A DNA stretch of 64,000 nucleotides from Onchidella celtica. Its lineage: Eukaryota > Mollusca > Gastropoda > Systellommatophora > Onchidiidae. Below are positions 10,379 to 43,824 of the stretch, piece after piece (the first letter of the stretch is position 1; every line of letters begins with the position of its first letter). Location: contig OZ007576.1 in NCBI GenBank assembly GCA_963931925.1, forward strand, positions 18,427,811 through 18,491,810. Direction: 5' to 3'. A model generated the notes under the pieces. The model had not been told where the DNA came from, ran no database searches, and was given only the letters and a program-made list of their open reading frames with translations. The translations under genes were made by a program, and so were the position numbers.

Positions 10379-10383
10379 ATCAG
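10379..10383. repeat. Left target-site duplication ATCAG
   Basis: The five bases ATCAG directly abut the first LTR. The identical five bases directly follow the last LTR at 43820-43824. Ty3/Gypsy integrases typically make 4-6 bp duplications. The pair marks the whole array as one insertion locus. Confidence 0.8.
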
Positions 10384-11788
10384 TGTTACGGGTCTGGTCT
10401 GGGTGGTAGTGTTACAGAGTGGGTGTTATGAATTATTGGTTTTATGACTGCATTTAAAAATCGAGAGGTATTTACTAATTAAGCTTTCGTACCATGCCAC
10501 ACACTAAGAACAATCTGAATAAGTTTTATCAACAGACCTGCAGGGCCACAAATTTAATTACCTTAAATGTCCTAACAATTTTGTCTAGATCTCTTACATA
10601 TTAAAAAGACAACATCAGCAGCATCAAATGAAAATTCCATAATATGTCACTAGAAGTCTCCTCTAGATTCCTTTAAGATTAAGATCATTCTGACTCTCTA
10701 ACAATTTAAGTATGAATTGTCTATCTCTCAGATATAGTCTGCCTACTATCTATCAAGCAATATACTAATGTCTCTGGCGACAATGTCATCTCAGCTATTT
10801 GTGCCTACCGCTTATAATGGATCAAGCTCGTCAATACAAACTGACGTAGTTAAGTCTATTAGATCTACTCTAGGATGGGCTGGCAATCCCCAGCCTCATC
10901 CAGACAAATCAATTCCAATTCACAGATGTGTATGCCAAACATTCATACTAGATCTAGTTGCAAGTTAATATACATCTTTGTCTTGCATTCTTGGGTAGCA
11001 CTCCTAGCATATGCGGCAATCCTGTTCTACTGGATAAATTATGGTCAGCTCCTCGTTCATTGTTGAATCAACAGACAAACACTTACACTTGGTCCCTGAT
11101 AAGGAATCAGGGAACAGTAGACAACAGCAGTGGGTAAATCATAATCGAGCACATGGCTTCATCTCAATGCCTATAATGGACATAGACATAAAAAACAACA
11201 GTCTTCTGATTCTTCTGGCAGAATCACGCCGACGCCTGCACAGATGGAATTTTCTGTATGGAGTGATGAACATAGGAATGGCTACGCTTTTATACTGTGC
11301 GGCCAACTGCAAATTACCGTCCAAATGCCTAGATTTGATTGGTGCATCCATTCGAGCTCAGCTCGCAGTATTAATAGATTCTGCATGGAAGTTGGTCACG
11401 GCCTTGTACTAGAAACAGACAAGGTCAAATTAAAATGTCAAAACCATTACTAAAATCTCTAAACCCTCGTGCTTTCTACGTTTTATGTACGAATTTCTGA
11501 ACGCGACTAAGCGTCTTAAACTATCTATCCTTATTCACCCCTTCTCTTCCCTTGTAAGAGTTCATCAAAATCACGGGGTCGAGAATTGCACTGTCACTCC
11601 TAACTTATCCATTTATTCTATCTTGCCCCACTTTCTTTCCATCTCTAAGAAAAAGTGTTACAAAAACAAACTGTTCACGAGAACAGTTCAAGGACATTTT
11701 ACGCTGGTTATAATCAACGAAACCGTGAAAAAAAACAAGTCTTTTCAAGTCGTGACCCAGCACGACAATTATAGTATTAACCTTGACA
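10384..11788 (-). repeat. Array LTR 1 (outermost left; 3' LTR in element sense)
   Basis: 1405 bp. It is the reference copy for LTR parts: TATA box at 11287-11294 (minus strand), and the chance frames that recur in every LTR. It carries a few private substitutions not seen in the inner LTRs, as expected of an outer copy that exchanges less. Confidence 0.88.
11287..11294 (-). promoter_or_regulatory. LTR TATA box (repeated in all nine LTRs)
   Basis: Minus strand reads AGTATAAAAGCG, a strong TATA box, about 500 bp from the LTR start in the element sense. Transcription would start about 25-30 bp further, near 11260, moving left. The same site recurs every 4004 bp, so the array carries nine copies of a possible pol II promoter, all antisense to the small-exon gene. 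Confidence 0.5.
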
Positions 11789-11802
11789 TCCCCCACCCCA
11801 GT
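11789..11802 (-). promoter_or_regulatory. Polypurine tract beside the LTR
   Basis: Minus strand reads ACTGGGGTGGGGGA, directly followed by the LTR start TGTCAAGG. Such tracts prime plus-strand DNA synthesis and always abut the 3' LTR, so this fixes both the orientation and the LTR edge. It recurs beside each LTR at the array period except after the last one, where host DNA begins. Confidence 0.8.
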
Positions 11803-12853
11803 GGAAATTTTAAGAAAAAATTTACACGATAGGATCCAAGAAACCACAAAGTTATTGTGGTAGGGGCTTAAGTACTACTCTAGAAAAACGAGCCTTAAGC
11901 TTGAGAATAAAAATTTTTTTTAACTAAGAACGTGCATATTGGATGGACAAAAAGCATACAATTATTGATGCCACGTTCTATAGAATCTAGTCTATCGAAA
12001 CATTCTTACTGCACACAATCAAACTTCTCACGAACATTTATAATAACAATGAGTATATCACTGTATACTGCTGAATTAAAGTATAACTACTATCAAACAA
12101 TCAGGCCTTACTGAAGGAATCGGCTCATAATTATCTCGTCAACACACATAATTGCTGCTTATATACACATTCACAAACAATATATTGCTAATTAAAATAC
12201 TGTGGTATCCAATGGCAGCAGTAGCTCTGGTAGCTTGGTTTGCCATGTCTCCATCTCATTGACCCGCTGACAAGGGCGTCAGGTTTGTCAGAAGTTCAGG
12301 TCACAGTCCGGAATGACGCTGGTGGAAAGAGGATATTCACAAAAAAAAAGGATTGTAAAATTGGTTCATATAGTAATGAACAAGATAAATGTGAATCCAT
12401 CCACCGTCTAGAATTGAGGGGGAAAAGCACTATCCAACCCCAATATAAGACAGACTCTGTAATAGAGTAATGAAATTTTTGGTCTGTCTTACATTTTACA
12501 ACGAATTTCCGTATAATGAAGCCGAAACAACCAAAACGGCGAAAAGTTAATTAGCTTAACGTTTACATTTCAAACTCGCGTGGTGCTGCGTTAAATGCAA
12601 CAATAGTATAGAACTTTCTCAATTTAATAACAATATGATTATTTAATCTCCGTATCGAATCCGGTATAGATGAGATGGCACGAGGCGATAGCTAGTTAAT
12701 TTAATGCGCTTTACGCAAGCCATGCACACGTCAAGTGTCACAGTCATCTCGGTATATAGTCATATCTGGCATTACGTTAGCTGGTCCACGGAACGCGGAC
12801 AGCCTAAGACATAATCGGTTATATAATAAAAAAACAACTCTTCTCCACAACTT

Positions 12854-13010
12854 AAAACGCGACCACGCAGTGTCCTCTGTTACCACTGCAAAAAACTCTC
12901 AAAAACGCGAACACGCAGTCTCCTCTGTTACCACTGCAAAAATATATCTCTCTCTCAACGCGACGAATCAGTGTTCTCTGTTAGCACTGGAAAAACTCTC
13001 AAAACGCGAA
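12854..13010. repeat. ~50-bp tandem repeat inside the array unit
   Basis: Three to four diverged copies of a 44-54 bp unit, each starting with AACGCG and containing CTCTGTTACCACTGCAAAAA or a close variant. It recurs in every internal region (for example about 16858-17014). A 169-codon plus-strand frame that repeats eight times in the array is generated by this and the next repeat. Confidence 0.7.
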
Positions 13011-13024
13011 AATTCCCTTTCTTA

Positions 13025-13172
13025 CCGGTCGGTCTTACACTGCCCGTCGGTCTTACACTGCCTGCGGCCTTACACTGCCCATAGGTCTTACACTGCATCT
13101 CCGCGTCTTACACTGCCTGCGGCCTTACACTGCCCTGAGGCCTTACACTGCCCTGTGGGGCTTACAATGCCT
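13025..13172. repeat. 17-bp GC-rich minisatellite inside the array unit
   Basis: About eight to nine copies of a 16-19 bp unit such as GGCCTTACACTGCCCTG, with the core CTTACACTGCC nearly invariant. GC-rich against an AT-rich unit. A CT tract follows at 13186-13201. Present in all eight internal regions. Confidence 0.75.
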
Positions 13173-14373
13173 GTAAGAAGGTTCAACTCTCTCTCTCTCT
13201 CAATATACCACGTGTCTTTTATAATGACATTACCTCAATACTGATACGAACAAGTCCCATGAGACAATAAACTCTTTGCTCCTCGGGCGGCCGCTCAGCC
13301 GAAAATAACACCAATATTCACCACATATCCCTACTAAAAAAAAAGTCACCCCCCTAAGCAGCCTAGTACTGCCCTCTCGGGGGCTCGTCAATGTTAAGAC
13401 GAGATCGGTTATACATAACGCTTAATAAGCTCCATAGAACAGGCAGCATGGTAACTGCACGGGTTCCAACAATTCAATAAAAATCCTCACTCAAGCAGTG
13501 TTGCTACTGTACAACATAGGAGGATTAATTAACCCTCACTGCTTATTAACCCAGAATACACATGAACTCACTCACCGTGTCACAACACGTGAACGAATTC
13601 AGGTATGCAAGAAAAATTAAGTATAAACAAAAAAGGTAAATACGATATAACGAATGTATAAAAAGAGGTACATTACAAACAAGACGCAAGACTCACAAGC
13701 AAAACGAACGATAACAGACCCTACAAGTCCTAACTTATGTTACAGAAAGTTTAAGAAAAAGACAGGAGAGACATCTTCCTAAAGAAATGTGAGGAAGCAA
13801 TAGAAACGCCACAATCTATACGAATAATGGATCCCTAATAGAACTATTCACAGTGAAGCAAATCCCCCCGAGTTATCAATAGCCACCAAGGCACTCCAAT
13901 ATCCTTCGTAATGGCAAAGAAGATATGCTAAACTATGATCCCATCCAACCTCCCGCTCTTAAACTAAACATATAGTAAATGGAAAAAAAGCCTGGAAAGA
14001 CTGAGAGCGGAAAGTACCTCGCCCTCCTCAAGACTGACAATCAGATGGTTCACTTAACTTTCTTTTGAGGAATTCAGATGGTAATGTCCTCAATCCATAG
14101 CTCGTTCCAAGCCCCAAAAAAATGTGTTTCTGTCTCAGGTAGATCTCTAAGGTGAATGGTGTCCCTCGCCGGTGTCGTCGGGTCAATGGGATGATCAGCT
14201 CACCATATGAAATTGAACCAAAATGTTATATTAATACAAATTGCCTATAATCTAAAGTATAAAGGACCTGAAATCACAATGTTATAACAGAACAATATGA
14301 AATAATGGAATAAAATGCAATAGGTTTTAGAATAATTTACCTAAATGGCATGGCGTTATTTAAGTTCTTTAAG

Positions 14374-14386
14374 GGGTCCCTCTCCA
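14374..14386 (-). promoter_or_regulatory. Primer-binding-site candidate of the array element
   Basis: Minus strand reads TGGAGAGGGACCC starting one base after the LTR end, the same one-base spacing as in the element at 4290-4302. I do not recognise the matching tRNA; it is not the proline site used by the element at 1-5504. Confidence 0.5.
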
Positions 14387-14387
14387 G

Positions 14388-15792
14388 TGTTACGGGTCTG
14401 GTCTGGGTGGTAGTGTTACAGAGTGGGTGTTATGAATTATTGGTTTTATGACTGCATTTAAAAATCGAGAGGTATTTACTAATTAAGCTTTCGTACCATG
14501 CCACACACTAAGAACAATCTGAATAAGTTTTATCAACAGACCTGCAGGGCCACAAATTTAATTACCTTAAATGTCCTAACAATTTTGTCTAGATCTCTTA
14601 CATATTAAAAAGACAACATCAGCAGCATCAAATGAAAATTCAATAATATGTCACTAGAAGTCTCCTCTAGATTCCTGTAAGATTAAGATCATTCTGACTC
14701 TCTAACAATTTAAGTATGAATTGTCTATCTCTCAGATATAGTCTGCCTACTATCTATCAAGCAATATACTAATGTCTCTGGCGACAATGTCATCTCAGCT
14801 ATTTGTGCCTACCGCTTATAATGGATCAAGCTCGTCAATACAAACTGACGTAGTTAAGTCTATTAGATCTACTCTAGGATGGGCTGGCAATCCCCAGCCT
14901 CATCCAGACAAATCAATTCCAATTCACAGATGTGTATGCCAAACATTCATACTAGATCTAGTTGCAAGTTAATATACATCTTTGTCTTGCATTCTTGGGT
15001 AGCACTCCTAGCATATGCGGCAATCCTGTCCTACTGGATAAATTATGGTCAGCTCCTCGTTCATTGTTGAATCAACAGACAAACACTTACACTTGGTCCC
15101 TGATAAGGAATCAGGGAACAGTAGACAACAGCAGTGGGTAAATCATAATCGAGCACATGGCTTCATCTCAATGCCTATAATGGACATAGACATAAAAAAC
15201 AACAGTCTTCTGATTCTTCTGGCAGAATCACGCCGACGCCTGCACAGATGGAATTTTCTGTATGGAGTGATGAACATAGGAATGGCTACGCTTTTATACT
15301 GTGCGGCCAACTGCAAATTACCGTCCAAATGCCTAGATTTGATTGGTGCATCCATTCGAGCTCAGCTCGCAGTATTAATAGATTCTGCATGGAAGTTGGT
15401 CACGGCCTTGTACTAGAAACAGACAAGGTCAAATTAAAATGTCAAAACCATTACTAAAATCTCTAAACCCTCGTGCTTTCTACGTTTTATGTACGAATTT
15501 CTGAACGCGACTAAGCGTCTTAAACTATCTATCCTTATTCACCCCTTCTCTTCCCTTGTAAGAGTTCATCAAAATCACGGGGTCGAGAATTGCACTGTCA
15601 CTCCTAACTTATCCATTTATTCTATCTTGCCCCACTTTCTTTCCATCTCTAAGAAAAAGTGTTACAAAAACAAACTGTTCACGAGAACAGTTCAAGGACA
15701 TTTTACGCTGGTTATAATCAACGAAACCGTGAAAAAAAACAAGTCTTTTCAAGTCGTGACCCAGCACGACAATTATAGTATTAACCTTGACA
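14388..15792 (-). repeat. Array LTR 2
   Basis: 1405 bp, essentially identical to the inner LTRs. Confidence 0.88.
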
Positions 15793-18391
15793 TCCCCCAC
15801 CCCAGTGGAAATTTTAAGAAAAAATTTACACGATAGGATCGAAGAAACCACAAAGTTATTGTGGTAGGGGCTTAAGTACTACTCTAGAAAAACGAGCCTT
15901 AAGCTTGAGAATAAAAATTTTTTTTAACTAAGAACGTGCATATTGGATGGACAAAAAGCATACAATTATTGATGCCACGTTCTATAGAATCTAGTCTATC
16001 GAAACATTCTTACTGCACACAATCAAACTTCTCACGAACATTTATAATAACAATGAGTATATCACTGTATACTGCTGAATTAAAGTATAACTACTATCAA
16101 ACAATCAGGCCTTACTGAAGGAATCGGCTCATAATTATCTCGTCAACACACATAATTGCTGCTTATATACACATTCACAAACAATATATTGCTAATTAAA
16201 ATACTGTGGTATCCAATGGCAGCAGTAGCTCTGGTAGCTTGGTTTGCCATGTCTCCATCTCATTGACCCGCTGACAAGGGCGTCAGGTTTGTCAGAAGTT
16301 CAGGTCACAGTCCGGAATGACGCTGGTGGAAAGAGGATATTCACAAAAAAAAAGGATTGTAAAATTGGTTCATATAGTAATGAACAAGATAAATGTGAAT
16401 CCATCCACCGTCTAGAATTGAGGGGGAAAAGCACTATCCAACCCCAATATAAGACAGACTCTGTAATAGAGTAATGACATTTTTGGTCTGTCTTACATTT
16501 TACAACGAATTTCCGTATAATGAAGCCGAAACAACCAAAACGGCGAAAAGTTAATTAGCTTAACGTTTACATTTCAAACTCGCGTGGTGCTGCGTTAAAT
16601 GCAACAATAGTATAGAACTTTCTCAATTTAATAACAATATGATTATTTAATCTCCGTATCGAATCCGGTATAGATGAGATGGCACGAGGCGATAGCTAGT
16701 TAATTTAATGCGCTTTACGCAAGCCATGCACACGTCAAGTGTCACAGTCATCTCGGTATATAGTCATATCTGGCATTACGTTAGCTGGTCCACGGAACGC
16801 GGACAGCCTAAGACATAATCGGTTATATAATAAAAAAACAACTCTTCTCCACAACTTAAAACGCGACCACGCAGTGTCCTCTGTTACCACTGCAAAAAAC
16901 TCTCAAAAACGCGAACACGCAGTCTCCTCTGTTACCACTGCAAAAATATATCTCTCTCTCAACGCGACGAATCAGTGTTCTCTGTTAGCACTGGAAAAAC
17001 TCTCAAAACGCGAAAATTCCCTTTCTTACCGGTCGGTCTTACACTGCCCGTCGGTCTTACACTGCCTGCGGCCTTACACTGCCCATAGGTCTTACACTGC
17101 ATCTCCGCGTCTTACACTGCCTGCGGCCTTACACTGCCCTGAGGCCTTACACTGCCCTGTGGGGCTTACAATGCCTGTAAGAAGGTTCAACTCTCTCTCT
17201 CTCTCAATATACCACGTGTCTTTTATAATGACATTACCTCAATACTGATACGAACAAGTCCCATGAGACAATAAACTCTTTGCTCCTCGGGCGGCCGCTC
17301 AGCCGAAAATAACACCAATATTCACCACATATCCCTACTAAAAAAAAAGTCACCTCCCTAAGCAGCCTAGTACTGCCCTCTCGGGGGCTCGTCAATGTTA
17401 AGACGAGATCGGTTATACATAACGCTTAATAAGCTCCATAGAACAGGCAGCATGGTAACTGCACGGGTTCCAACAATTCAATAAAAATCCTCACTCAAGC
17501 AGTGTTGCTACTGTACAACATAGGAGGATTAATTAACCCTCACTGCTTATTAACCCAGAATACACATGAACTCACTCACCGTGTCACAACACGTGAACGA
17601 ATTCAGGTATGCAAGAAAAATTAAGTATAAACAAAAAAGGTAAATACGATATAACGAATGTATAAAAAGAGGTACATTACAAACAAGACGCAAGACTCAC
17701 AAGCAAAACGAACGATAACAGACCCTACAAGTCCTAACTTATGTTACAGAAAGTTTAAGAAAAAGACAGGAGAGACATCTTCCTAAAGAAATGTGAGGAA
17801 GCAATAGAAACGCCACAATCTATACGAATAATGGATCCCTAATAGAACTATTCACAGTGAAGCAAATCCCCCCGAGTTATCAATAGCCACCAAGGCACTC
17901 CAATATCCTTCGTAATGGCAAAGAAGATATGCTAAACTATGATCCCATCCAACCTCCCGCTCTTAAACTAAACATATAGTAAATGGAAAAAAAGCCTGGA
18001 AAGACTGAGAGCGGAAAGTACCTCGCCCTCCTCAAGACTGACAATCAGATGGTTCACTTAACTTTCTTTTGAGGAATTCAGATGGTAATGTCCTCAATCC
18101 ATAGCTCGTTCCAAGCCCCAAAAAAATGTGTTTCTGTCTCAGGTAGATCTCTAAGGTGAATGGTGTCCCTCTCCGGTGTCGTCGGGTCAATGGGATGATC
18201 AGCTCACCATATGAAATTGAACCAAAATGTTATATTAATACAAATTGCCTATAATCTAAAGTATAAAGGACCTGAAATCACAATGTTATAACAGAACAAT
18301 ATGAAATAATGGAATAAAATGCAATAGGTTTTAGAATAATTTACCTAAATGGCATGGCGTTATTTAAGTTCTTTAAGGGGTCCCTCTCCAG
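15793..18391 (-). mobile_element. Array internal region 2
   Basis: 2599 bp, variant class A. Shares with unit 1 a C-rather-than-A variant in the A-run near its right end that units 3-8 lack. Confidence 0.85.
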
Positions 18392-19797
18392 TGTTACGGG
18401 TCTGGTCTGGGTGGTAGTGTTACAGAGTGGGTGTTATGAATTATTGGTTTTATGACTGCATTTAAAAATCGAGAGGTATTTACTAATTAAGCTTTCGTAC
18501 CATGCCACACACTAAGAACAATCTGAATAAGTTTTATCAACAGACCTGCAGGGCCACAAATTTAATTACCTTAAATGTCCTAAAAATTTTGTCTAGATCT
18601 CTTACATATTAAAAAGACAACATCAGCAGCATCAAATGAAAATTCAATAATATGTCACTAGAAGTCTCCTCTAGATTCCTGTAAGATTAAGATCATTCTG
18701 ACTCTCTAACAATTTAAGTATGAATTGTCTATCTCTCAGATATAGTCTGCCTACTATCTATCAAGCAATATACTAATGTCTCTGGCGACAATGTCATCTC
18801 AGCTATTTGTGCCTACCGCTTATAATGGATCAAGCTCGTCAATACAAACTGACGTAGTTAAGTCTATTAGATCTACTCTAGGATGGGCTGGCAATCCCCA
18901 GCCTCATCCAGACAAATCAATTCCAATTCACAGATGTGTATGCCAAACATTCATACTAGATCTAGTTGCAAGTTAATATACATCTTTGTCTTGCATTCTT
19001 GGGTAGCACTCCTAGCATATGCGGCAATCCTGTCCTACTGGATAAATTATGGTCAGCTCCTCGTTCATTGTTGAATCAACAGACAAACACTTACACTTGG
19101 TCCCTGATAAGGAATCAGGGAACAGTAGACAACAGCAGTGGGTAAATCATAATCGAGCACATGGCTTCATCTCAATGCCTATAATGGACATAGACATAAA
19201 AAACAACAGTCTTCTGATTCTTCTGGCAGAATCACGCCGACGCCTGCACAGATGGAATTTTCTGTATGGAGTGATGAACATAGGAATGGCTACGCTTTTA
19301 TACTGTGCGGCCAACTGCAAATTACCGTCCAAATGCCTAGATTTGATTGGTGCATCCATTCGAGCTCAGCTCGCAGTATTAATAGATTCTGCATGGAAGT
19401 TGGTCACGGCCTTGTACTAGAAACAGACAAGGTCAAATTAAAATGTCAAAACCATTACTAAAATCTCTAAACCCTCGTGCTTTCTACGTTTTATGTACGA
19501 ATTTCTGAACGCGACTAAGCGTCTTAAACTATCTATCCTTATTCACCCCTTCTCTTCCCTTGTAAGAGTTCATCAAAATCACGGGGTCGAGAATTGCACT
19601 GTCACTCCTAACTTATCCATTTATTCTATCTTGCCCCACTTTCTTTCCATCTCTAAGAAAAAGTGTTACAAAAACAAACTGTTCACGAGAACAGTTCAAG
19701 GACATTTTACGCTGGTTATAATCAACGAAACCGTGAAAAAAAAACAAGTCTTTTCAAGTCGTGACCCAGCACGACAATTATAGTATTAACCTTGACA
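18392..19797 (-). repeat. Array LTR 3
   Basis: 1406 bp, one base longer than the others in a homopolymer A run; this accounts for the single 4005-bp step. Confidence 0.88.
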
Positions 19798-22396
19798 TCC
19801 CCCACCCCAGTGGAAATTTTAAGAAAAAATTTACACGATAGGATCCAAGAAACCACAAAGTTATTGTGGTAGGGGCTTAAGTACTAATGTAGAAAAACGA
19901 GCCTTAAGCTTGAGAATAAAATTTTTTTTTAACTAAGAACGTGCATATTGGATGGACAAAAAGCATACAATTATTGATGCCACGTTCTATAGAATCTAGT
20001 CTATCGAAACATTCTTACTGCACACAATCAAACTTCTCACGAACATTTATAATAACAATGAGTATATCACTGTATACTGCTGAATTAAAGTATAACTACT
20101 ATCAAACAATCAGGCCTTACTGAAGGAATCGGTTCATAATTATCTCGTCAACACACATAATTGCTGCTTATATACACATTCACAAACAATATATTGCTAA
20201 TTAAAATACTGTGGTATCCAATGGCAGCAGTAGCCCTGGTAGCTTGGTTTGCCATGTCTCCATCTCATTGACCCGCTGACAAGGGCGTCAGGTTTGTCAG
20301 AAGTTCAGGTCACAGTCCGGAATGACGCTGGTGGAAAGAGGATATTCACAAAAAAAAAGGATTGTAAAATTGGTTCATATAGTAATGAACAAGATAAATG
20401 TGAATCCATCCACCGTCTAGAATTGAGGGGGAAAAGCACTATCCAACCCCAATATAAGACAGACTCTGTAATAGAGTAATGAAATTTTTGGTCTGTCTTA
20501 CATTTTACAACGAATTTCCGTATAATGAAGCCGAAACAACCAAAACGGCGAAAAGTTAATTAGCTTAACGTTTACATTTCAAACTCGCGTGGTGCTGCGT
20601 TAAATGCAACAATAGTATAGAACTTTCTCAATTTAATAACAATATGATTATTTAATCTCCGTATCGAATCCGGTATAGATGAGATGGCACGAGGCGATAG
20701 CTAGTTAATTTAATGCGCTTTACGCAAGCCATGCACACGTCAAGTGTCACAGTCATCTCGGTATATAGTCATATCTGGCATTACGTTAGCTGGTCCACGG
20801 AACGCGGACAGCCTAAGACATAATCGGTTATATAATAAAAAAACAACTCTTCTCCACAACTTAAAACGCGACCACGCAGTGTCCTCTGTTACCACTGCAA
20901 AAAACTCTCAAAAACGCGAACACGCAGTCTCCTCTGTTACCACTGCAAAAATATATCTCTCTCTCAACGCGACGAATCAGTGTTCTCTGTTAGCACTGGA
21001 AAAACTCTCAAAACGCGAAAATTCCCTTTCTTACCGGTCGGTCTTACACTGCCCGTCGGTCTTACACTGCCTGCGGCCTTACACTGCCCATAGGTCTTAC
21101 ACTGCATCTCCGCGTCTTACACTGCCTGCGGCCTTACACTGCCCTGAGGCCTTACACTGCCCTGTGGGGCTTACAATGCCTGTAAGAAGGTTCAACTCTC
21201 TCTCTCTCTCAATATACCACGTGTCTTTTATAATGACATTACCTCAATACTGATACGAACAAGTCCCATGAGACAATAAACTCTTTGCTCCTCGGGCGGC
21301 CGCTCAGCCGAAAATAACACCAATATTCACCACATATCCCTACTAAAAAAAAAGTCACCTCCCTAAGCAGCCTAGTACTGCCCTCTCGGGGGCTCGTCAA
21401 TGTTAAGACGAGATCGGTTATACATAACGCTTAATAAGCTCCATAGAACAGGCAGCATGGTAACTGCACGGGTTCCAACAATTCAATAAAAATCCTCACT
21501 CAAGCAGTGTTGCTACTGTACAACATAGGAGGATTAATTAACCCTCACTGCTTATTAACCCAGAATACACATGAACTCACTCACCGTGTCACAACACGTG
21601 AACGAATTCAGGTATGCAAGAAAAATTAAGTATAAACAAAAAAGGTAAATACGATATAACGAATGTATAAAAAGAGGTACATTACAAACAAGACGCAAGA
21701 CTCACAAGCAAAACGAACGATAACAGACCCTACAAGTCCTAACTTATGTTACAGAAAGTTTAAGAAAAAGACAGGAGAGACATCTTCCTAAAGAAATGTG
21801 AGGAAGCAATAGAAACGCCACAATCTATACGAATAATGGATCCCTAATAGAACTATTCACAGTGAAGCAAATCCCCCCGAGTTATCAATAGCCACCAAGG
21901 CACTCCAATATCCTTCGTAATGGCAAAGAAGATATGCTAAACTATGATCCCATCCAACCTCCCGCTCTTAAACTAAACATATAGTAAATGGAAAAAAAGC
22001 CTGGAAAGACTGAGAGCGGAAAGTACCTCGCCCTCCTCAAGACTGACAATCAGATGGTTCACTTAACTTTCTTTTGAGGAATTCAGATGGTAATGTCCTC
22101 AATCCATAGCTCGTTCCAAGCCCAAAAAAAATGTGTTTCTGTCTCAGGTAGATCTCTAAGGTGAATGGTGTCCCTCTCCGGTGTCGTCGGGTCAATGGGA
22201 TGATCAGCTCACCATATGAAATTGAACCAAAATGTTATATTAATACAAATTGCCTATAATCTAAAGTATAAAGGACCTGAAATCACAATGTTATAACAGA
22301 ACAATATGAAATAATGGAATAAAATGCAATAGGTTTTAGAATAATTTACCTAAATGGCATGGCGTTATTTAAGTTCTTTAAGGGGTCCCTCTCCAG
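19798..22396 (-). mobile_element. Array internal region 3
   Basis: 2599 bp, variant class B: it shares at least two private variants with unit 7, four units away, and with no other unit. Confidence 0.85.
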
Positions 22397-30404: not shown

Positions 30405-31809
30405 TGTTACGGGTCTGGTCTGGGTGGTAGTGTTACAGAGTGGGTGTTATGAATTATTGGTTTTATGACTGCATTTAAAAATCGAGAGGTATTTACTAAT
30501 TAAGCTTTCGTACCATGCCACACACTAAGAACAATCTGAATAAGTTTTATCAACAGACCTGCAGGGCCACAAATTTAATTACCTTAAATGTCCTAACAAT
30601 TTTGTCTAGATCTCTTACATATTAAAAAGACAACATCAGCAGCATCAAATGAAAATTCAATAATATGTCACTAGAAGTCTCCTCTAGATTCCTGTAAGAT
30701 TAAGATCATTCTGACTCTCTAACAATTTAAGTATGAATTGTCTATCTCTCAGATATAGTCTGCCTACTATCTATCAAGCAATATACTAATGTCTCTGGCG
30801 ACAATGTCATCTCAGCTATTTGTGCCTACCGCTTATAATGGATCAAGCTCGTCAATACAAACTGACGTAGTTAAGTCTATTAGATCTACTCTAGGATGGG
30901 CTGGCAATCCCCAGCCTCATCCAGACAAATCAATTCCAATTCACAGATGTGTATGCCAAACATTCATACTAGATCTAGTTGCAAGTTAATATACATCTTT
31001 GTCTTGCATTCTTGGGTAGCACTCCTAGCATATGCGGCAATCCTGTCCTACTGGATAAATTATGGTCAGCTCCTCGTTCATTGTTGAATCAACAGACAAA
31101 CACTTACACTTGGTCCCTGATAAGGAATCAGGGAACAGTAGACAACAGCAGTGGGTAAATCATAATCGAGCACATGGCTTCATCTCAATGCCTATAATGG
31201 ACATAGACATAAAAAACAACAGTCTTCTGATTCTTCTGGCAGAATCACGCCGACGCCTGCACAGATGGAATTTTCTGTATGGAGTGATGAACATAGGAAT
31301 GGCTACGCTTTTATACTGTGCGGCCAACTGCAAATTACCGTCCAAATGCCTAGATTTGATTGGTGCATCCATTCGAGCTCAGCTCGCAGTATTAATAGAT
31401 TCTGCATGGAAGTTGGTCACGGCCTTGTACTAGAAACAGACAAGGTCAAATTAAAATGTCAAAACCATTACTAAAATCTCTAAACCCTCGTGCTTTCTAC
31501 GTTTTATGTACGAATTTCTGAACGCGACTAAGCGTCTTAAACTATCTATCCTTATTCACCCCTTCTCTTCCCTTGTAAGAGTTCATCAAAATCACGGGGT
31601 CGAGAATTGCACTGTCACTCCTAACTTATCCATTTATTCTATCTTGCCCCACTTTCTTTCCATCTCTAAGAAAAAGTGTTACAAAAACAAACTGTTCACG
31701 AGAACAGTTCAAGGACATTTTACGCTGGTTATAATCAACGAAACCGTGAAAAAAAACAAGTCTTTTCAAGTCGTGACCCAGCACGACAATTATAGTATTA
31801 ACCTTGACA
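30405..31809 (-). repeat. Array LTR 6
   Basis: 1405 bp, essentially identical to LTR 2. Confidence 0.88.
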
Positions 31810-34408
31810 TCCCCCACCCCAGTGGAAATTTTAAGAAAAAATTTACACGATAGGATCCAAGAAACCACAAAGTTATTGTGGTAGGGGCTTAAGTACTACT
31901 GTAGAAAAACGAGCCTTAAGCTTGAGAATAAAAAATTTTTTTAACTAAGAACGTGCATATTGGATGGACAAAAAGCATACAATTATTGATGCCACGTTCT
32001 ATAGAATCTAGTCTATCGAAACATTCTTACTGCACACAATCAAACTTCTCACGAACATTTATAATAACAATGAGTATATCACTGTATACTGCTGAATTAA
32101 AGTATAACTACTATCAAACAATCAGGCCTTACTGAAGGAATCGGCTCATAATTATCTCGTCAACACACATAATTGCTGCTTATATACACATTCACAAACA
32201 ATATATTGCTAATTAAAATACTGTGGTATCCAATGGCAGCAGTAGCTCTGGTAGCTTGGTTTGCCATGTCTCCATCTCATTGACCCGCTGACAAGGGCGT
32301 CAGGTTTGTCAGAAGTTCAGGTCACAGTCCGGAATGACGCTGGTGGAAAGAGGATATTCACAAAAAAAAAGGATTGTAAAATTGGTTAATATAGTAATGA
32401 ACAAGATAAATGTGAATCCATCCACCGTCTAGAATTGAGGGGGAAAAGCACTATCCAACCCCAATATAAGACAGACTCTGTAATAGAGTAATGAAATTTT
32501 TGGTCTGTCTTACATTTTACAACGAATTTCCGTATAATGAAGCCGAAACAACCAAAACGGCGAAAAGTTAATTAGCTTAACGTTTACATTTCAAACTCGC
32601 GTGGTGCTGCGTTAAATGCAACAATAGTATAGAACTTTCTCAATTTAATAACAATATGATTATTTAATCTCCGTATCGAATCCGGTATAGATGAGATGGC
32701 ACGAGGCGATAGCTAGTTAATTTAATGCGCTTTACGCAAGCCATGCACACGTCAAGTGTCACAGTCATCTCGGTATATAGTCATATCTGGCATTACGTTA
32801 GCTGGTCCACGGAACGCGGACAGCCTAAGACATAATCGGTTATATAATAAAAAAACAACTCTTCTCCACAACTTAAAACGCGACCACGCAGTGTCCTCTG
32901 TTACCACTGCAAAAAACTCTCAAAAACGCGAACACGCAGTCTCCTCTGTTACCACTGCAAAAATATATCTCTCTCTCAACGCGACGAATCAGTGTTCTCT
33001 GTTAGCACTGGAAAAACTCTCAAAACGCGAAAATTCCCTTTCTTACCGGTCGGTCTTACACTGCCCGTCGGTCTTACACTGCCTGCGGCCTTACACTGCC
33101 CATAGGTCTTACACTGCATCTCCGCGTCTTACACTGCCTGCGGCCTTACACTGCCCTGAGGCCTTACACTGCCCTGTGGGGCTTACAATGCCTGTAAGAA
33201 GGTTCAACTCTCTCTCTCTCTCAATATACCACGTGTCTTTTATAATGACATTACCTCAATACTGATACGAACAAGTCCCATGAGACAATAAACTCTTTGC
33301 TCCTCGGGCGGCCGCTCAGCCGAAAATAACACCAATATTCACCACATATCCCTACTAAAAAAAAAGTCACCTCCCTAAGCAGCCTAGTACTGCCCTCTCG
33401 GGGGCTCGTCAATGTTAAGACGAGATCGGTTATACATAACGCTTAATAAGCTCCATAGAACAGGCAGCATGGTAACTGCACGGGTTCCAACAATTCAATA
33501 AAAATCCTCACTCAAGCAGTGTTGCTACTGTACAACATAGGAGGATTAATTAACCCTCATTGCTTATTAACCCAGAATACACATGAACTCACTCACCGTG
33601 TCACAACACGTGAACGAATTCAGGTATGCAAGAAAAATTAAGTATAAACAAAAAAGGTAAATACGATATAACGAATGTATAAAAAGAGGTACATTACAAA
33701 CAAGACGCAAGACTCACAAGCAAAACGAACGATAACAGACCCTACAAGTCCTAACTTATGTTACAGAAAGTTTAAGAAAAAGACAGGAGAGACATCTTCC
33801 TAAAGAAATGTGAGGAAGCAATAGAAACGCCACAATCTATACGAATAATGGATCCCTAATAGAACTATTCACAGTGAAGCAAATCCCCCCGAGTTATCAA
33901 TAGCCACCAAGGCACTCCAATATCCTTCGTAATGGCAAAGAAGATATGCTAAACTATGATCCCATCCAACCTCCCGCTCTTAAACTAAACATATAGTAAA
34001 TGGAAAAAAAGCCTGGAAAGACTGAGAGCGGAAAGTACCTCGCCCTCCTCAAGACTGACAATCAGATGGTTCACTTAACTTTCTTTTGAGGAATTCAGAT
34101 GGTAATGTCCTCAATCCATAGCTCGTTCCAAGCCCAAAAAAAATGTGTTTCTGTCTCAGGTAGATCTCTAAGGTGAATGGTGTCCCTCGCCGGTGTCGTC
34201 GGGTCAATGGGATGATCAGCTCACCATATGAAATTGAACCAAAATGTTATATTAATACAAATTGCCTATAATCTAAAGTATAAAGGACCTGAAATCACAA
34301 TGTTATAACAGAACAATATGAAATAATGGAATAAAATGCAATAGGTTTTAGAATAATTTACCTAAATGGCATGGCGTTATTTAAGTTCTTTAAGGGGTCC
34401 CTCTCCAG
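31810..34408 (-). mobile_element. Array internal region 6
   Basis: 2599 bp, variant class C. Shares an A/T-run variant near its left end with units 7 and 8. Confidence 0.85.
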
Positions 34409-35813
34409 TGTTACGGGTCTGGTCTGGGTGGTAGTGTTACAGAGTGGGTGTTATGAATTATTGGTTTTATGACTGCATTTAAAAATCGAGAGGTATTTAC
34501 TAATTAAGCTTTCGTACCATGCCACACACTAAGAACAATCTGAATAAGTTTTATCAACAGACCTGCAGGGCCACAAATTTAATTACCTTAAATGTCCTAA
34601 CAATTTTGTCTAGATCTCTTACATATTAAAAAGACAACATCAGCAGCATCAAATGAAAATTCAATAATATGTCACTAGAAGTCTCCTCTAGATTCCTGTA
34701 AGATTAAGATCATTCTGACTCTCTAACAATTTAAGTATGAATTGTCTATCTCTCAGATATAGTCTGCCTACTATCTATCAAGCAATATACTAATGTCTCT
34801 GGCGACAATGTCATCTCAGCTATTTGTGCCTACCGCTTATAATGGATCAAGCTCGTCAATACAAACTGACGTAGTTAAGTCTATTAGATCTACTCTAGGA
34901 TGGGCTGGCAATCCCCAGCCTCATCCAGACAAATCAATTCCAATTCACAGATGTGTATGCCAAACATTCATACTAGATCTAGTTGCAAGTTAATATACAT
35001 CTTTGTCTTGCATTCTTGGGTAGCACTCCTAGCATATGCGGCAATCCTGTCCTACTGGATAAATTATGGTCAGCTCCTCGTTCATTGTTGAATCAACAGA
35101 CAAACACTTACACTTGGTCCCTGATAAGGAATCAGGGAACAGTAGACAACAGCAGTGGGTAAATCATAATCGAGCACATGGCTTCATCTCAATGCCTATA
35201 ATGGACATAGACATAAAAAACAACAGTCTTCTGATTCTTCTGGCAGAATCACGCCGACGCCTGCACAGATGGAATTTTCTGTATGGAGTGATGAACATAG
35301 GAATGGCTACGCTTTTATACTGTGCGGCCAACTGCAAATTACCGTCCAAATGCCTAGATTTGATTGGTGCATCCATTCGAGCTCAGCTCGCAGTATTAAT
35401 AGATTCTGCATGGAAGTTGGTCACGGCCTTGTACTAGAAACAGACAAGGTCAAATTAAAATGTCAAAACCATTACTAAAATCTCTAAACCCTCGTGCTTT
35501 CTACGTTTTATGTACGAATTTCTGAACGCGACTAAGCGTCTTAAACTATCTATCCTTATTCACCCCTTCTCTTCCCTTGTAAGAGTTCATCAAAATCACG
35601 GGGTCGAGAATTGCACTGTCACTCCTAACTTATCCATTTATTCTATCTTGCCCCACTTTCTTTCCATCTCTAAGAAAAAGTGTTACAAAAACAAACTGTT
35701 CACGAGAACAGTTCAAGGACATTTTACGCTGGTTATAATCAACGAAACCGTGAAAAAAAACAAGTCTTTTCAAGTCGTGACCCAGCACGACAATTATAGT
35801 ATTAACCTTGACA
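34409..35813 (-). repeat. Array LTR 7
   Basis: 1405 bp, essentially identical to LTR 2. Confidence 0.88.
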
Positions 35814-38412
35814 TCCCCCACCCCAGTGGAAATTTTAAGAAAAAATTTACACGATAGGATCCAAGAAACCACAAAGTTATTGTGGTAGGGGCTTAAGTAC
35901 TAATGTAGAAAAACGAGCCTTAAGCTTGAGAATAAAAAATTTTTTTAACTAAGAACGTGCATATTGGATGGACAAAAAGCATACAATTATTGATGCCACG
36001 TTCTATAGAATCTAGTCTATCGAAACATTCTTACTGCACACAATCAAACTTCTCACGAACATTTATAATAACAATGAGTATATCACTGTATACTGCTGAA
36101 TTAAAGTATAACTACTATCAAACAATCAGGCCTTACTGAAGGAATCGGCTCATAATTATCTCGTCAACACACATAATTGCTGCTTATATACACATTCACA
36201 AACAATATATTGCTAATTAAAATACTGTGGTATCCAATGGCAGCAGTAGCCCTGGTAGCTTGGTTTGCCATGTCTCCATCTCATTGACCCGCTGACAAGG
36301 GCGTCAGGTTTGTCAGAAGTTCAGGTCACAGTCCGGAATGACGCTGGTGGAAAGAGGATATTCACCAAAAAAAAGGATTGTAAAATTGGTTCATATAGTA
36401 ATGAACAAGATAAATGTGAATCCATCCACCGTCTAGAATTGAGGGGGAAAAGCACTATCCAACCCCAATATAAGACAGACTCTGTAATAGAGTAATGAAA
36501 TTTTTGGTCTGTCTTACATTTTACAACGAATTTCCGTATAATGAAGCCGAAACAACCAAAACGGCGAAAAGTTAATTAGCTTAACGTTTACATTTCAAAC
36601 TCGCGTGGTGCTGCGTTAAATGCAACAATAGTATAGAACTTTCTCAATTTAATAACAATATGATTATTTAATCTCCGTATCGAATCCGGTATAGATGAGA
36701 TGGCACGAGGCGATAGCTAGTTAATTTAATGCGCTTTACGCAAGCCATGCACACGTCAAGTGTCACAGTCATCTCGGTATATAGTCATATCTGGCATTAC
36801 GTTAGCTGGTCCACGGAACGCGGACAGCCTAAGACATAATCGGTTATATAATAAAAAAACAACTCTTCTCCACAACTTAAAACGCGACCACGCAGTGTCC
36901 TCTGTTACCACTGCAAAAAACTCTCAAAAACGCGAACACGCAGTCTCCTCTGTTACCACTGCAAAAATATATCTCTCTCTCAACGCGACGAATCAGTGTT
37001 CTCTGTTAGCACTGGAAAAACTCTCAAAACGCGAAAATTCCCTTTCTTACCGGTCGGTCTTACACTGCCCGTCGGTCTTACACTGCCTGCGGCCTTACAC
37101 TGCCCATAGGTCTTACACTGCATCTCCGCGTCTTACACTGCCTGCGGCCTTACACTGCCCTGAGGCCTTACACTGCCCTGTGGGGCTTACAATGCCTGTA
37201 AGAAGGTTCAACTCTCTCTCTCTCTCAATATACCACGTGTCTTTTATAATGACATTACCTCAATACTGATACGAACAAGTCCCATGAGACAATAAACTCT
37301 TTGCTCCTCGGGCGGCCGCTCAGCCGAAAATAACACCAATATTCACCACATATCCCTACTAAAAAAAAAGTCACCTCCCTAAGCAGCCTAGTACTGCCCT
37401 CTCGGGGGCTCGTCAATGTTAAGACGAGATCGGTTATACATAACGCTTAATAAGCTCCATAGAACAGGCAGCATGGTAACTGCACGGGTTCCAACAATTC
37501 AATAAAAATCCTCACTCAAGCAGTGTTGCTACTGTACAACATAGGAGGATTAATTAACCCTCACTGCTTATTAACCCAGAATACACATGAACTCACTCAC
37601 CGTGTCACAACACGTGAACGAATTCAGGTATGCAAGAAAAATTAAGTATAAACAAAAAAGGTAAATACGATATAACGAATGTATAAAAAGAGGTACATTA
37701 CAAACAAGACGCAAGACTCACAAGCAAAACGAACGATAACAGACCCTACAAGTCCTAACTTATGTTACAGAAAGTTTAAGAAAAAGACAGGAGAGACATC
37801 TTCCTAAAGAAATGTGAGGAAGCAATAGAAACGCCACAATCTATACGAATAATGGATCCCTAATAGAACTATTCACAGTGAAGCAAATCCCCCCGAGTTA
37901 TCAATAGCCACCAAGGCACTCCAATATCCTTCGTAATGGCAAAGAAGATATGCTAAACTATGATCCCATCCAACCTCCCGCTCTTAAACTAAACATATAG
38001 TAAATGGAAAAAAAGCCTGGAAAGACTGAGAGCGGAAAGTACCTCGCCCTCCTCAAGACTGACAATCAGATGGTTCACTTAACTTTCTTTTGAGGAATTC
38101 AGATGGTAATGTCCTCAATCCATAGCTCGTTCCAAGCCCAAAAAAAATGTGTTTCTGTCTCAGGTAGATCTCTAAGGTGAATGGTGTCCCTCTCCGGTGT
38201 CGTCGGGTCAATGGGATGATCAGCTCACCATATGAAATTGAACCAAAATGTTATATTAATACAAATTGCCTATAATCTAAAGTATAAAGGACCTGAAATC
38301 ACAATGTTATAACAGAACAATATGAAATAATGGAATAAAATGCAATAGGTTTTAGAATAATTTACCTAAATGGCATGGCGTTATTTAAGTTCTTTAAGGG
38401 GTCCCTCTCCAG
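35814..38412 (-). mobile_element. Array internal region 7
   Basis: 2599 bp, variant class B, the partner of unit 3. Confidence 0.85.
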
Positions 38413-39817
38413 TGTTACGGGTCTGGTCTGGGTGGTAGTGTTACAGAGTGGGTGTTATGAATTATTGGTTTTATGACTGCATTTAAAAATCGAGAGGTAT
38501 TTACTAATTAAGCTTTCGTACCATGCCACACACTAAGAACAATCTGAATAAGTTTTATCAACAGACCTGCAGGGCCACAAATTTAATTACCTTAAATGTC
38601 CTAACAATTTTGTCTAGATCTCTTACATATTAAAAAGACAACATCAGCAGCATCAAATGAAAATTCAATAATATGTCACTAGAAGTCTCCTCTAGATTCC
38701 TGTAAGATTAAGATCATTCTGACTCTCTAACAATTTAAGTATGAATTGTCTATCTCTCAGATATAGTCTGCCTACTATCTATCAAGCAATATACTAATGT
38801 CTCTGGCGACAATGTCATCTCAGCTATTTGTGCCTACCGCTTATAATGGATCAAGCTCGTCAATACAAACTGACGTAGTTAAGTCTATTAGATCTACTCT
38901 AGGATGGGCTGGCAATCCCCAGCCTCATCCAGACAAATCAATTCCAATTCACAGATGTGTATGCCAAACATTCATACTAGATCTAGTTGCAAGTTAATAT
39001 ACATCTTTGTCTTGCATTCTTGGGTAGCACTCCTAGCATATGCGGCAATCCTGTCCTACTGGATAAATTATGGTCAGCTCCTCGTTCATTGTTGAATCAA
39101 CAGACAAACACTTACACTTGGTCCCTGATAAGGAATCAGGGAACAGTAGACAACAGCAGTGGGTAAATCATAATAGAGCTCATGGCTTCATCTCAATGCC
39201 TATAATGGACATAGACATAAAAAACAACAGTCTTCTGATTCTTCTGGCAGAATCACGCCGACGCCTGCACAGATGGAATTTTCTGTATGGAGTGATGAAC
39301 ATAGGAATGGCTACGCTTTTATACTGTGCGGCCAACTGCAAATTACCGTCCAAATGCCTAGATTTGATTGGTGCATCCATTCGAGCTCAGCTCGCAGTAT
39401 TAATAGATTCTGCATGGAAGTTGGTCACGGCCTTGTACTAGAAACAGACAAGGTCAAATTAAAATGTCAAAACCATTACTAAAATCTCTAAACCCTCGTG
39501 CTTTCTACGTTTTATGTACGAATTTCTGAACGCGACTAAGCGTCTTAAACTATCTATCCTTATTCACCCCTTCTCTTCCCTTGTAAGAGTTCATCAAAAT
39601 CACGGGGTCGAGAATTGCACTGTCACTCCTAACTTATCCATTTATTCTATCTTGCCCCACTTTCTTTCCATCTCTAAGAAAAAGTGTTACAAAAACAAAC
39701 TGTTCACGAGAACAGTTCAAGGACATTTTACGCTGGTTATAATCAACGAAACCGTGAAAAAAAACAAGTCTTTTCAAGTCGTGACCCAGCACGACAATTA
39801 TAGTATTAACCTTGACA
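38413..39817 (-). repeat. Array LTR 8
   Basis: 1405 bp. Two private substitutions a few bases apart distinguish it from all other LTRs. Confidence 0.88.
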
Positions 39818-42416
39818 TCCCCCACCCCAGTGGAAATTTTAAGAAAAAATTTACACGATAGGATCCAAGAAACCACAAAGTTATTGTGGTAGGGGCTTAA
39901 GTACTACTGTAGAAAAACGAGCCTTAAGCTTGAGAATAAAAAATTTTTTTAACTAAGAACGTGCATATTGGATGGACAAAAAGCATACAATTATTGATGC
40001 CACGTTCTATAGAATCTAGTCTATCGAAACATTCTTACTGCACACAATCAAACTTCTCACGAACATTTATAATAACAATGAGTATATCACTGTATACTGC
40101 TGAATTAAAGTATAACTACTATCAAACAATCAGGCCTTACTGAAGGAATCGGCTCATAATTATCTCGTCAACACACATAATTGCTGCTTATATACACATT
40201 CACAAACAATATATTGCTAATTAAAATACTGTGGTATCCAATGGCAGCAGTAGCTCTGGTAGCTTGGTTTGCCATGTCTCCATCTCATTGACCCGCTGAC
40301 AAGGGCGTCAGGTTTGTCAGAAGTTCAGGTCACAGTCCGGAATGACGCTGGTGGAAAGAGGATATTCACAAAAAAAAAGGATTGTAAAATTGGTTAATAT
40401 AGTAATGAACAAGATAAATGTGAATCCATCCACCGTCTAGAATTGAGGGGGAAAAGCACTATCCAACCCCAATATAAGACAGACTCTGTAATAGAGTAAT
40501 GAAATTTTTGGTCTGTCTTACATTTTACAACGAATTTCCGTATAATGAAGCCGAAACAACCAAAACGGCGAAAAGTTAATTAGCTTAACGTTTACATTTC
40601 AAACTCGCGTGGTGCTGCGTTAAATGCAACAATAGTATAGAACTTTCTCAATTTAATAACAATATGATTATTTAATCTCCGTATCGAATCCGGTATAGAT
40701 GAGATGGCACGAGGCGATAGCTAGTTAATTTAATGCGCTTTACGCAAGCCATGCACACGTCAAGTGTCACAGTCATCTCGGTATATAGTCATATCTGGCA
40801 TTACGTTAGCTGGTCCACGGAACGCGGACAGCCTAAGACATAATCGGTTATATAATAAAAAAACAACTCTTCTCCACAACTTAAAACGCGACCACGCAGT
40901 GTCCTCTGTTACCACTGCAAAAAACTCTCAAAAACGCGAACACGCAGTCTCCTCTGTTACCACTGCAAAAATATATCTCTCTCTCAACGCGACGAATCAG
41001 TGTTCTCTGTTAGCACTGGAAAAACTCTCAAAACGCGAAAATTCCCTTTCTTACCGGTCGGTCTTACACTGCCCGTCGGTCTTACACTGCCTGCGGCCTT
41101 ACACTGCCCATAGGTCTTACACTGCATCTCCGCGTCTTACACTGCCTGCGGCCTTACACTGCCCTGAGGCCTTACACTGCCCTGTGGGGCTTACAATGCC
41201 TGTAAGAAGGTTCAACTCTCTCTCTCTCTCAATATACCACGTGTCTTTTATAATGACATTACCTCAATACTGATACGAACAAGTCCCATGAGACAATAAA
41301 CTCTTTGCTCCTCGGGCGGCCGCTCAGCCGAAAATAACACCAATATTCACCACATATCCCTACTAAAAAAAAAGTCACCTCCCTAAGCAGCCTAGTACTG
41401 CCCTCTCGGGGGCTCGTCAATGTTAAGACGAGATCGGTTATACATAACGCTTAATAAGCTCCATAGAACAGGCAGCATGGTAACTGCACGGGTTCCAACA
41501 ATTCAATAAAAATCCTCACTCAAGCAGTGTTGCTACTGTACAACATAGGAGGATTAATTAACCCTCATTGCTTATTAACCCAGAATACACATGAACTCAC
41601 TCACCGTGTCACAACACGTGAACGAATTCAGGTATGCAAGAAAAATTAAGTATAAACAAAAAAGGTAAATACGATATAACGAATGTATAAAAAGAGGTAC
41701 ATTACAAACAAGACGCAAGACTCACAAGCAAAACGAACGATAACAGACCCTACAAGTCCTAACTTATGTTACAGAAAGTTTAAGAAAAAGACAGGAGAGA
41801 CATCTTCCTAAAGAAATGTGAGGAAGCAATAGAAACGCCACAATCTATACGAATAATGGATCCCTAATAGAACTATTCACAGTGAAGCAAATCCCCCCGA
41901 GTTATCAATAGCCACCAAGGCACTCCAATATCCTTCGTAATGGCAAAGAAGATATGCTAAACTATGATCCCATCCAACCTCCCGCTCTTAAACTAAACAT
42001 ATAGTAAATGGAAAAAAAGCCTGGAAAGACTGAGAGCGGAAAGTACCTCGCCCTCCTCAAGACTGACAATCAGATGGTTCACTTAACTTTCTTTTGAGGA
42101 ATTCAGATGGTAATGTCCTCAATCCATAGCTCGTTCCAAGCCCAAAAAAAATGTGTTTCTGTCTCAGGTAGATCTCTAAGGTGAATGGTGTCCCTCGCCG
42201 GTGTCGTCGGGTCAATGGGATGATCAGCTCACCATATGAAATTGAACCAAAATGTTATATTAATACAAATTGCCTATAATCTAAAGTATAAAGGACCTGA
42301 AATCACAATGTTATAACAGAACAATATGAAATAATGGAATAAAATGCAATAGGTTTTAGAATAATTTACCTAAATGGCATGGCGTTATTTAAGTTCTTTA
42401 AGGGGTCCCTCTCCAG
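39818..42416 (-). mobile_element. Array internal region 8
   Basis: 2599 bp, variant class C. It is the internal region next to the outermost 5' LTR in the element sense. Confidence 0.85.
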
Positions 42417-43819
42417 TGTTACGGGTCTGGTCTGGGTGGTAGTGTTACAGAGTGGGTGTTATGAATTATTGGTTTTATGACTGCATTTAAAAATCGAGAG
42501 GTATTTACTAATTAAGCTTTCGTACCATGCCACACACTAAGAACAATCTGAATAAGTTTTATCAACAGACCTGCAGGGCCACAAATTTAATTACCTTAAA
42601 TGTCCTAACAATTTTGTCTAGATCTCTTACATATTAAAAAGACAACATCAGCAGCATCAAATGAAAATTCAATAATATGTCACTAGAAGTCTCCTCTAGA
42701 TTCCTGTAAGATTAAGATCATTCTGACTCTCTAACAATTTAAGTATGAATTGTCTATCTCTCAGATATAGTCTGCCTACTATCTATCAAGCAATATACTA
42801 ATGTCTCTGGCGACAATGTCATCTCAGCTATTTGTGCCTACCGCTTATAATGGATCAAGCTCGTCAATACAAACTGACGTAGTTAAGTCTATTAGATCTA
42901 CTCTAGGATGGGCTGGCAATCCCCAGCCTCATCCAGACAAATCAATTCCAATTCACAGATGTGTATGCCAAACATTCATACTAGATCTAGTTGCAAGTTA
43001 ATATACATCTTTGTCTTGCATTCTTGGGTAGCACTCCTAGCATATGCGGCAATCCTGTCCTACTGGATAAATTATGGTCAGCTCCTCGTTCATTGTTGAA
43101 TCAACAGACAAACACTTACACTTGGTCCCTGATAAGGAATCAGGGAACAGTAGACAACAGCAGTGGGTAAATCATAATCGAGCACATGGCTTCATCTCAA
43201 TGCCTATAATGGACATAGACATAAAAAACAACAGTCTTCTGATTCTTCTGGCAGAATCACGCCGACGCCTGCACAGATGGAATTTTCTGTATGGAGTGAT
43301 GAACATAGGAATGGCTACGCTTTTATACTGTGCGGCCAACTGCAAATTACCGTCCAAATGCCTAGATTTGATTGGTGCATCCATTCGAGCTCAGCTCGCA
43401 GTATTAATAGATTCTGCATGGAAGTTGGTCACGGCCTTGTACTAGAAACAGACAAGGTCAAATTAAAATGTCAAAACCATTACTAAAATCTCTAAACCCT
43501 CGTGCTTTCTACGTTTTATGTACGAATTTCTGAACGCGACTAAGCGTCTTAAACTATCTATCCTTATTCACCCCTTCTCTTCCCTTGTAAGAGTTCATCA
43601 AAATCACGGGGTCGAGAATTGCACTGTCACTCCTAACTTATCCATTTATTCTATCTTGCCCCACTTTCTTTTCATCTCTAAGAAAAAGTTACAAAAACAA
43701 ACTGTTCACGAGAACAGTTCAAGGACATTTTACGCTGGTTATAATCAACGAAACCGTGAAAAAAAACAAGTCTTTTCAAGTCGTGACCCAGCACGACAAT
43801 TATAGTATTAACCTTGACA
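42417..43819 (-). repeat. Array LTR 9 (outermost right; 5' LTR in element sense)
   Basis: 1403 bp. It ends in CCTTGACA exactly where host sequence resumes, with no polypurine tract after it, so it closes the array. It has private differences near its right end. Like LTR 1 it is more diverged than the inner LTRs. Confidence 0.88.
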
Positions 43820-43824
43820 ATCAG
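43820..43824. repeat. Right target-site duplication ATCAG
   Basis: Identical to 10379-10383 and immediately adjacent to the last LTR. Confidence 0.8.

Follow-up and report, generated by a model that had tools for sequence, protein, structure and literature searches.

A 64,000-nucleotide stretch of the genome of the gastropod Onchidella celtica (the window; contig OZ007576.1, here C10:18427811-18491810 of a 1.14-Gb, 43-contig assembly) contains, at positions 10384-43819 and on the minus strand, nine long terminal repeats (LTRs) of one retroelement alternating with eight interiors. The array goes back to a single insertion of a non-autonomous element, and this insertion was probably followed by multiplication in place by misaligned exchange. 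Relatives of the element form arrays at other loci of the same genome, framed by target-site duplications (TSDs) of their own.

The anatomy is that of a tandem LTR retrotransposon: LTR and interior alternate, an LTR stands at the start and at the end, and there is one TSD. The eight units are arranged head to tail with a period of 4004-4005 bp, and so constitute a long-unit array of the satellite (or macrosatellite) kind. The interior measures 2599 bp in all eight, and LTR length ranges from 1403 to 1406 bp (1405 bp in seven of nine, with LTR 3 at 1406 and LTR 9 at 1403; Table 1). The LTRs are direct terminal repeats with TG...CA ends (in plus-strand reading, TGTTACGG...CCTTGACA), and ATCAG, which is present at both borders (10379-10383 and 43820-43824), falls within the 4-6 bp expected of an LTR retrotransposon TSD. 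On the minus strand the purine tract GGGGTGGGGGA (letters from unit 1) directly abuts an LTR, as the polypurine tract of a 3' LTR does, and the first 48 interior positions, tract included, contain no variable column across the eight units. At the opposite end of the interior, the motif TGGAGAGGGACCCC lies one C from the LTR at all eight interior-LTR junctions. A polypurine tract next to the LTR is also seen in a related array on contig C7, in which the primer-site-like motif is nearly identical despite an LTR that is only 72% identical. By its position and conservation TGGAGAGGGACCCC is a putative primer-binding site; ARAGORN found no tRNA in the window or in the 24 loci (of 41) that it was given. 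An earlier note on this DNA, made without database searches, had claimed nine LTRs, eight interiors, borders exactly at LTR ends and the ATCAG frame, all of which the coordinates bear out. It had also placed polypurine tract and primer-site motifs in the right orientation at every junction: both motifs are indeed conserved there, the identity of the primer site being as qualified above.

The case for one insertion event is made by the site itself. The array interrupts a copy of another dispersed repeat, to which the flanks (approximately 10282-10383 and 43825-44000) belong. When the two flanks were joined with one ATCAG between them, all 40 scored matches proved continuous across the junction (query position 197; 1337 first-look candidates), and four of four uninterrupted copies read have ...GGTGC ATCAG AATGG..., with one ATCAG at the exact junction. 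The presence of a single ATCAG in these copies implies one insertion event. (The empty-site check suggested in the earlier note therefore came out as predicted, at sites that are paralogous instead of allelic.) Eight separate insertions are ruled out: internal LTRs are common to neighbouring units, no internal junction has extra sequence between LTR and interior, and the empty site is single.

The units of the array are private to its locus. Pairwise differences within it amount to 0-6 for LTRs and 0-14 for interiors (mean divergence 0.13% and 0.31%, respectively); divergence from the other arrays and LTRs compared is 2.3-5.1%. Columns that set all window units apart from the sequences compared number 54 in the interior and 11 in the LTR. 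Two further arrays, on C9 and at C1:22.7M, have 32 and 47 such interior columns, with mean divergences of 0.45% (LTR) and 0.07% (interior) for the former and 0.33% and 0.54% for the latter. Private variants are found in six of the eight interiors and five of the nine LTRs of the window array; interiors 6 and 8 are identical, and interiors 3 and 7 have two common variants unseen in other arrays. In the C9 array, units 1 and 3 have derived variants in common, in LTR as well as interior. That derived variants are common to non-adjacent units implies that part of the copying took place once the locus had already gathered mutations. Units also exchange sequence, since one tree cannot accommodate 10 of the 36 informative-site pairs (2 of 3 in the C9 array). 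Under unequal exchange (Smith's model) the edges of an array are expected to be more diverged; private LTR events average 2.83 at edges (n=6) and 0.83 at inner positions (n=12) of three arrays (permutation p 0.03). Stepwise exchange within the array is indicated by the non-adjacent derived variants, by the incompatible sites and, weakly, by the divergence of the edge LTRs. The earlier note had proposed that one insertion was multiplied in place, and the single-ATCAG empty sites, together with locus-specific units carrying later shared variants, support it.

The element's strand of the array contains no reading frame of 110 or more codons. None of the three plus-strand open reading frames (ORFs) of unit 1, two of which lie wholly or mostly within the LTR, matched Pfam, and a coding unit was rejected on that ground. 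The unit is classed as non-autonomous because the gag and pol coding of an autonomous LTR retrotransposon was not found. A retrozyme or other known structured RNA was also considered and rejected, since window 10384-14500 gave neither a hammerhead nor any other Rfam match at E values up to 1. A unit of 4 kb with LTRs of 1.4 kb is not of the miniature size of a terminal-repeat retrotransposon in miniature (TRIM). Long LTRs are typical of large retrotransposon derivatives (LARDs), and the 1405-bp LTR and large non-coding interior (2599 bp) are of that type, as is the existence of a coding relative sharing LTR and interior ends. This relative, a long copy at C17:45384903-45395214 with the TSD GCGAA, has an LTR 96% identical to that of the window and interior ends 92 and 95% identical; its interior overlaps that of the unit only over ~680 bp at the purine-tract end and ~740 bp at the primer-site end. 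Other loci have only this same primer-site-side stretch in common with the unit, and full-length LTR matches at other loci are 96-98% identical to the window LTR (40 of 5021 candidates scored). The long C17 copy (the one long copy looked at) has a weak PNMA gag match, below the Pfam cut-off, then integrase and, further downstream in the same orientation, reverse transcriptase and RNase H (Integrase_H2C2/rve at L017:8743-9906; RVT_1/RNase H at L018:1519-3132). Among gypsy-type elements, having integrase before reverse transcriptase is the mark of the Gmr1 clade of Ty3/gypsy (PMC6238403); the likeness is one of domain order in this one long partner, no coding having been found in the window unit. 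On these sequence comparisons the unit is read as non-autonomous and LARD-like, related to a longer Ty3/gypsy element in which integrase precedes reverse transcriptase, and the proteins for its mobility would have been supplied by that long partner. (A minus-strand ORF of 826 codons at window 898-3378 has SCAN, a zinc knuckle and, in the same frame, Integrase_H2C2, that is, gag followed by integrase, as in Gmr1-type elements.) A core at interior positions 751-1050 is 91-99% identical in seven of seven arrays compared, three of them with LTRs only ~67-73% alike, and did not turn up in the 11 loci examined that have long or other copies; one might guess that this conserved non-coding core is a packaging signal.

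Genome-wide, the primer-site junction is found at 1308 places with two or fewer mismatches, and a 46-letter core pattern at 364 with three or fewer. Exact matches to three 28-letter variants of the core number 92, 75 and 97 (complete lists), amounting to 264 units at 215 loci; these counts are lower bounds, units with other core letters being missed. There are 197 single-unit loci and 18 clusters of two or more units holding 67 units: three of three units, two of five, and one each of six, eight and fourteen, the commonest class being that of two units (10 of 18, one of the ten, on C2, being part of a larger block). Chance alone would give about 0.09 close pairs. Two C2 clusters sit inside one GCGGG-framed block, and the 18 clusters are therefore 17 arrays. 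Each cluster has one core variant, and array periods are 3.0-4.15 kb. Both ends were read in nine of the 17 arrays, and seven of these nine have a perfect 5-bp TSD, each different (Table 1). The remaining eight (C1:25.75M, C13:7.7M, C13:9.9M, C13:48.8M, C14:3.1M, C14:32.2M, C16 and C18) are arrays by core spacing alone, except C13:48.8M, in which 8 kb was read. LTRs of the C7, C6 and C11 arrays are ~67-73% like the window's where aligned (as little as 150 bp in C11), and their interiors 78-88%. The largest array, C7:56038317-56091217, has 14 core units in 52,901 bp; reading covered LTRs and interiors one to five, some of the sixth LTR and the final LTR, and the spacing suggests ~15 LTRs in all. 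Among the first 100 of the 364 matches to the 46-letter core, further clusters outside the 17 arrays are found at C4:58861220 (2) and C5:1610810 (2), with a more widely spaced pair at C5:18423075 and 18430856 (7.8 kb apart). Two arrangements stand apart: at C5:4165817-4178563, also outside the 17 arrays and within the same 100, four core matches 4.0-4.7 kb apart are on alternating strands, possibly an inverted arrangement; and the GCGGG-framed block includes, at C2:79936700-79936950, a 76%-identical interior piece in reverse orientation.

The window array probably arose as follows. A LARD-like element, 5.4 kb when single and in minus-strand orientation, was inserted once by integrase into the dispersed-repeat copy, with duplication of ATCAG. 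Misaligned exchange between the element's own LTRs would then have added units in place, and later misaligned exchange between whole units, on sister chromatids or homologues, would have added more, while conversion mixed variants among units; the outermost LTRs, being hard to replace by exchange, would have kept more private mutations. LTR-driven unequal crossing-over would thereby be the amplifier, instead of another in-place process such as re-integration of an excised circle. Lone LTRs account for 53 of the 71 loci in the LTR group of the window (among 100 of 106 listed starts) and may be the reciprocal product of exchange.

Several observations weigh against this scheme. LTRs are less variable than interiors in the window array and more variable than interiors in C9, a contrast not expected from simple exchange. 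The edge comparison has little weight, being drawn from three arrays, in one of which (C9) the left edge is free of private events. Some apparently lone LTRs may have a partner with a changed motif, and the single interior-less LTR checked (C4:75713874) shows no TSD. The first step, from one unit to two, was seen at no locus. Finally, two of the nine end-read arrays, C11 and C1:1.137M, have no TSD, which we read as edge loss: the left LTR of the C1:1.137M array is truncated, and the C11 array, whose host sequence is a relative of the gag of the element at window 898-3378 (the flanks match positions 594-696 and 700-759 of that element's gag ORF), has lost its left end: the LTR tip is gone, as are three bases of the host and the left TSD that would be expected.

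A single TSD is equally expected if the array was inserted already multi-unit, as tandem complementary DNA (cDNA) made by read-through of a one-LTR circle or by template switching, and reworked later; this possibility has been raised, and left open, for rice tandems (PMC11899658). The uniform spacing of some arrays suits such a fast event (all six units of the C17 array are 4031, all five of a C13 array 4147), as does the low variation in the read part of the 14-unit C7 array (4 LTR and 5 interior columns). However, the occurrence of locus-only variants in non-adjacent units (3 and 7; 5, 6 and 8) implies that at least some units formed later, and two-unit clusters predominate; insertion of a ready-made array is accordingly judged unlikely. 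The same anatomy would also be generated by growth in place through homologous, integrase-independent re-integration of extrachromosomal circles or cDNA into the element's own LTRs, for which yeast is the precedent named in PMC11899658. In the sets compared, however, units cluster by locus, so that the donor would have to be the locus itself, and this route is held to be quite improbable. False expansion of a one- or two-unit insertion by the assembler is more doubtful still. Near-identical 4-kb units are a classic risk in this respect, the identity of interiors 6 and 8 makes a small miscount possible, and the unit number is that of one assembly; on the other hand, the private variants described above argue against simple assembly duplication, and other arrays of the same assembly differ in period, variants and number. 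Single insertion with subsequent misaligned exchange in place is the preferred reading.

Array formation can be compared between the short and long forms of the element. In lists that overlap and are confined to exact or one-mismatch motif matches, arrays comprise 2 of 13 short-form loci versus none of 33 other primer-site junction loci on C1-C6 (p 0.075), 8 of 81 core loci versus none of the same 33 junction loci (p 0.10) and, in the LTR-start list, 2 of 4 short versus none of 14 long (p 0.039). A restriction of array formation to the short form is suggested by these numbers, weakly. It is tentatively proposed, as a possibility short of an even chance, that this is a tandem-prone lineage in which single insertions of the protein-less short form, but not those of its long partner, regularly become arrays, with about a quarter of units arrayed, in subfamilies whose LTRs are ~70% alike, yielding a natural series of 1-14 units, each with its own TSD.

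Structures of this kind are known. Tandem LTR retrotransposons with one TSD have been described, without a decision on their mechanism, from rice and other plants, and have LTR-interior alternation, an LTR at both ends, shared internal LTRs and high identity in common with the present array (PMC11899658). All 28 clear cases in that set encode protein domains, 10 of 28 have perfect TSDs, and the two loci detailed have two interiors (PMC11899658). In contrast, no coding was found in the unit analysed here, arrays extend to 14 units, and their variants bear on mechanism. (The same paper cites kangaroo centromeres as a tandem case.) Plant TRIM arrays are, like the window array, non-autonomous with a single TSD; in maize they reach L5I4 (five LTRs), with L3I2 the most frequent (63 of 93; PMC4717578), but TRIMs are miniature elements. 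The biv-TRIM of Ruditapes philippinarum provides long arrays of a non-autonomous LTR element in an animal, the longest locus being TDR58_I57 (a label taken from span length), 16.6 kb of a small unit for which no autonomous partner was found (PMC6934838). Cassandra, likewise non-autonomous, forms plant arrays of at least 12 LTR copies (PMC7215508); its LTRs carry 5S RNA sequence, in contrast to the window unit, in which Rfam had no match. LARD elements are akin in that the internal core domain encodes no protein (definition from the same paper), and differ in that tandem arrays are found here. With ~15 LTRs in the C7 array, at least 12 in Cassandra and the clam locus, nine LTRs are less unusual than the earlier note had it. 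No LARD-like array of this size was met among the titles and abstract starts listed from the open literature, which does not prove absence. What is new lies in unit size, array length, repeated occurrence within a single animal family and the evidence that growth was stepwise.

Table 1. Features of the array in the window, and target-site duplications of arrays with both ends read
Feature	Position	Strand	Remark
Left TSD ATCAG	10379..10383	.	borders read; single ATCAG in 4/4 paralogous empty sites
LTR 1	10384..11788	-	edge; 3 private variants
Interior 1	11789..14387	-	2599 bp; no coding found
Polypurine tract adjoining LTR 1	11789..11810	-	letters same in eight interiors
Interior 1, positions 751-1050	12539..12838	-	conserved between subfamilies; holds genome-wide marker patterns
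Short internal tandem repeats, interior 1	12854..13174	.	48-bp and 18/35/55-bp units; present in all eight interiors
Primer-binding-site-like motif TGGAGAGGGACCCC	14373..14387	-	one C from LTR end, 8/8 junctions
LTR 2	14388..15792	-	identical to LTR 4, 6, 7
Interior 2	15793..18391	-	
LTR 3	18392..19797	-	1406 bp
Interior 3	19798..22396	-	closest to interior 7
LTR 4	22397..23801	-	
Interior 4	23802..26400	-	
LTR 5	26401..27805	-	
Interior 5	27806..30404	-	
LTR 6	30405..31809	-	
Interior 6	31810..34408	-	identical to interior 8
LTR 7	34409..35813	-	
Interior 7	35814..38412	-	closest to interior 3
LTR 8	38413..39817	-	
Interior 8	39818..42416	-	identical to interior 6
LTR 9	42417..43819	-	edge; 1403 bp; 2 private events
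Right TSD ATCAG	43820..43824	.	
C10 (window array)			TSD ATCAG
C9 array			TSD ACATT
C1:22.7M array			TSD CTTAC
C6 array			TSD TCCCA
C7 array			TSD GCCGC
C17 array			TSD CTAGG
C2 block			TSD GCGGG

Other repeats lie downstream of the array in the window: a 38-bp tandem repeat (9.9 copies) at 46673-47050, several TCTAGA/CTAGAT repeat tracts at 50546-51426 and a 32-bp tandem repeat (7.7 copies) at 54416-54657.

How mobile elements become satellite DNA is debated, as is the question whether tandem LTR elements are born tandem or grow after insertion (PMC11899658). The insertion of a protein-less retroelement that has multiplied into eight near-identical 4-kb units, with relatives that have done likewise elsewhere in the genome, clearly exemplifies the conversion of mobile DNA to a satellite-like state, and sustains the proposal of the earlier note that a retroelement can become a satellite with a complex 4-kb unit. 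The question is made testable by the fact that one genome offers 17 arrays and 197 single-unit loci, with separate TSDs, readable variants and paralogous empty sites. If the lineage is indeed tandem-prone, the birth of a satellite would be traceable step by step within one genome.

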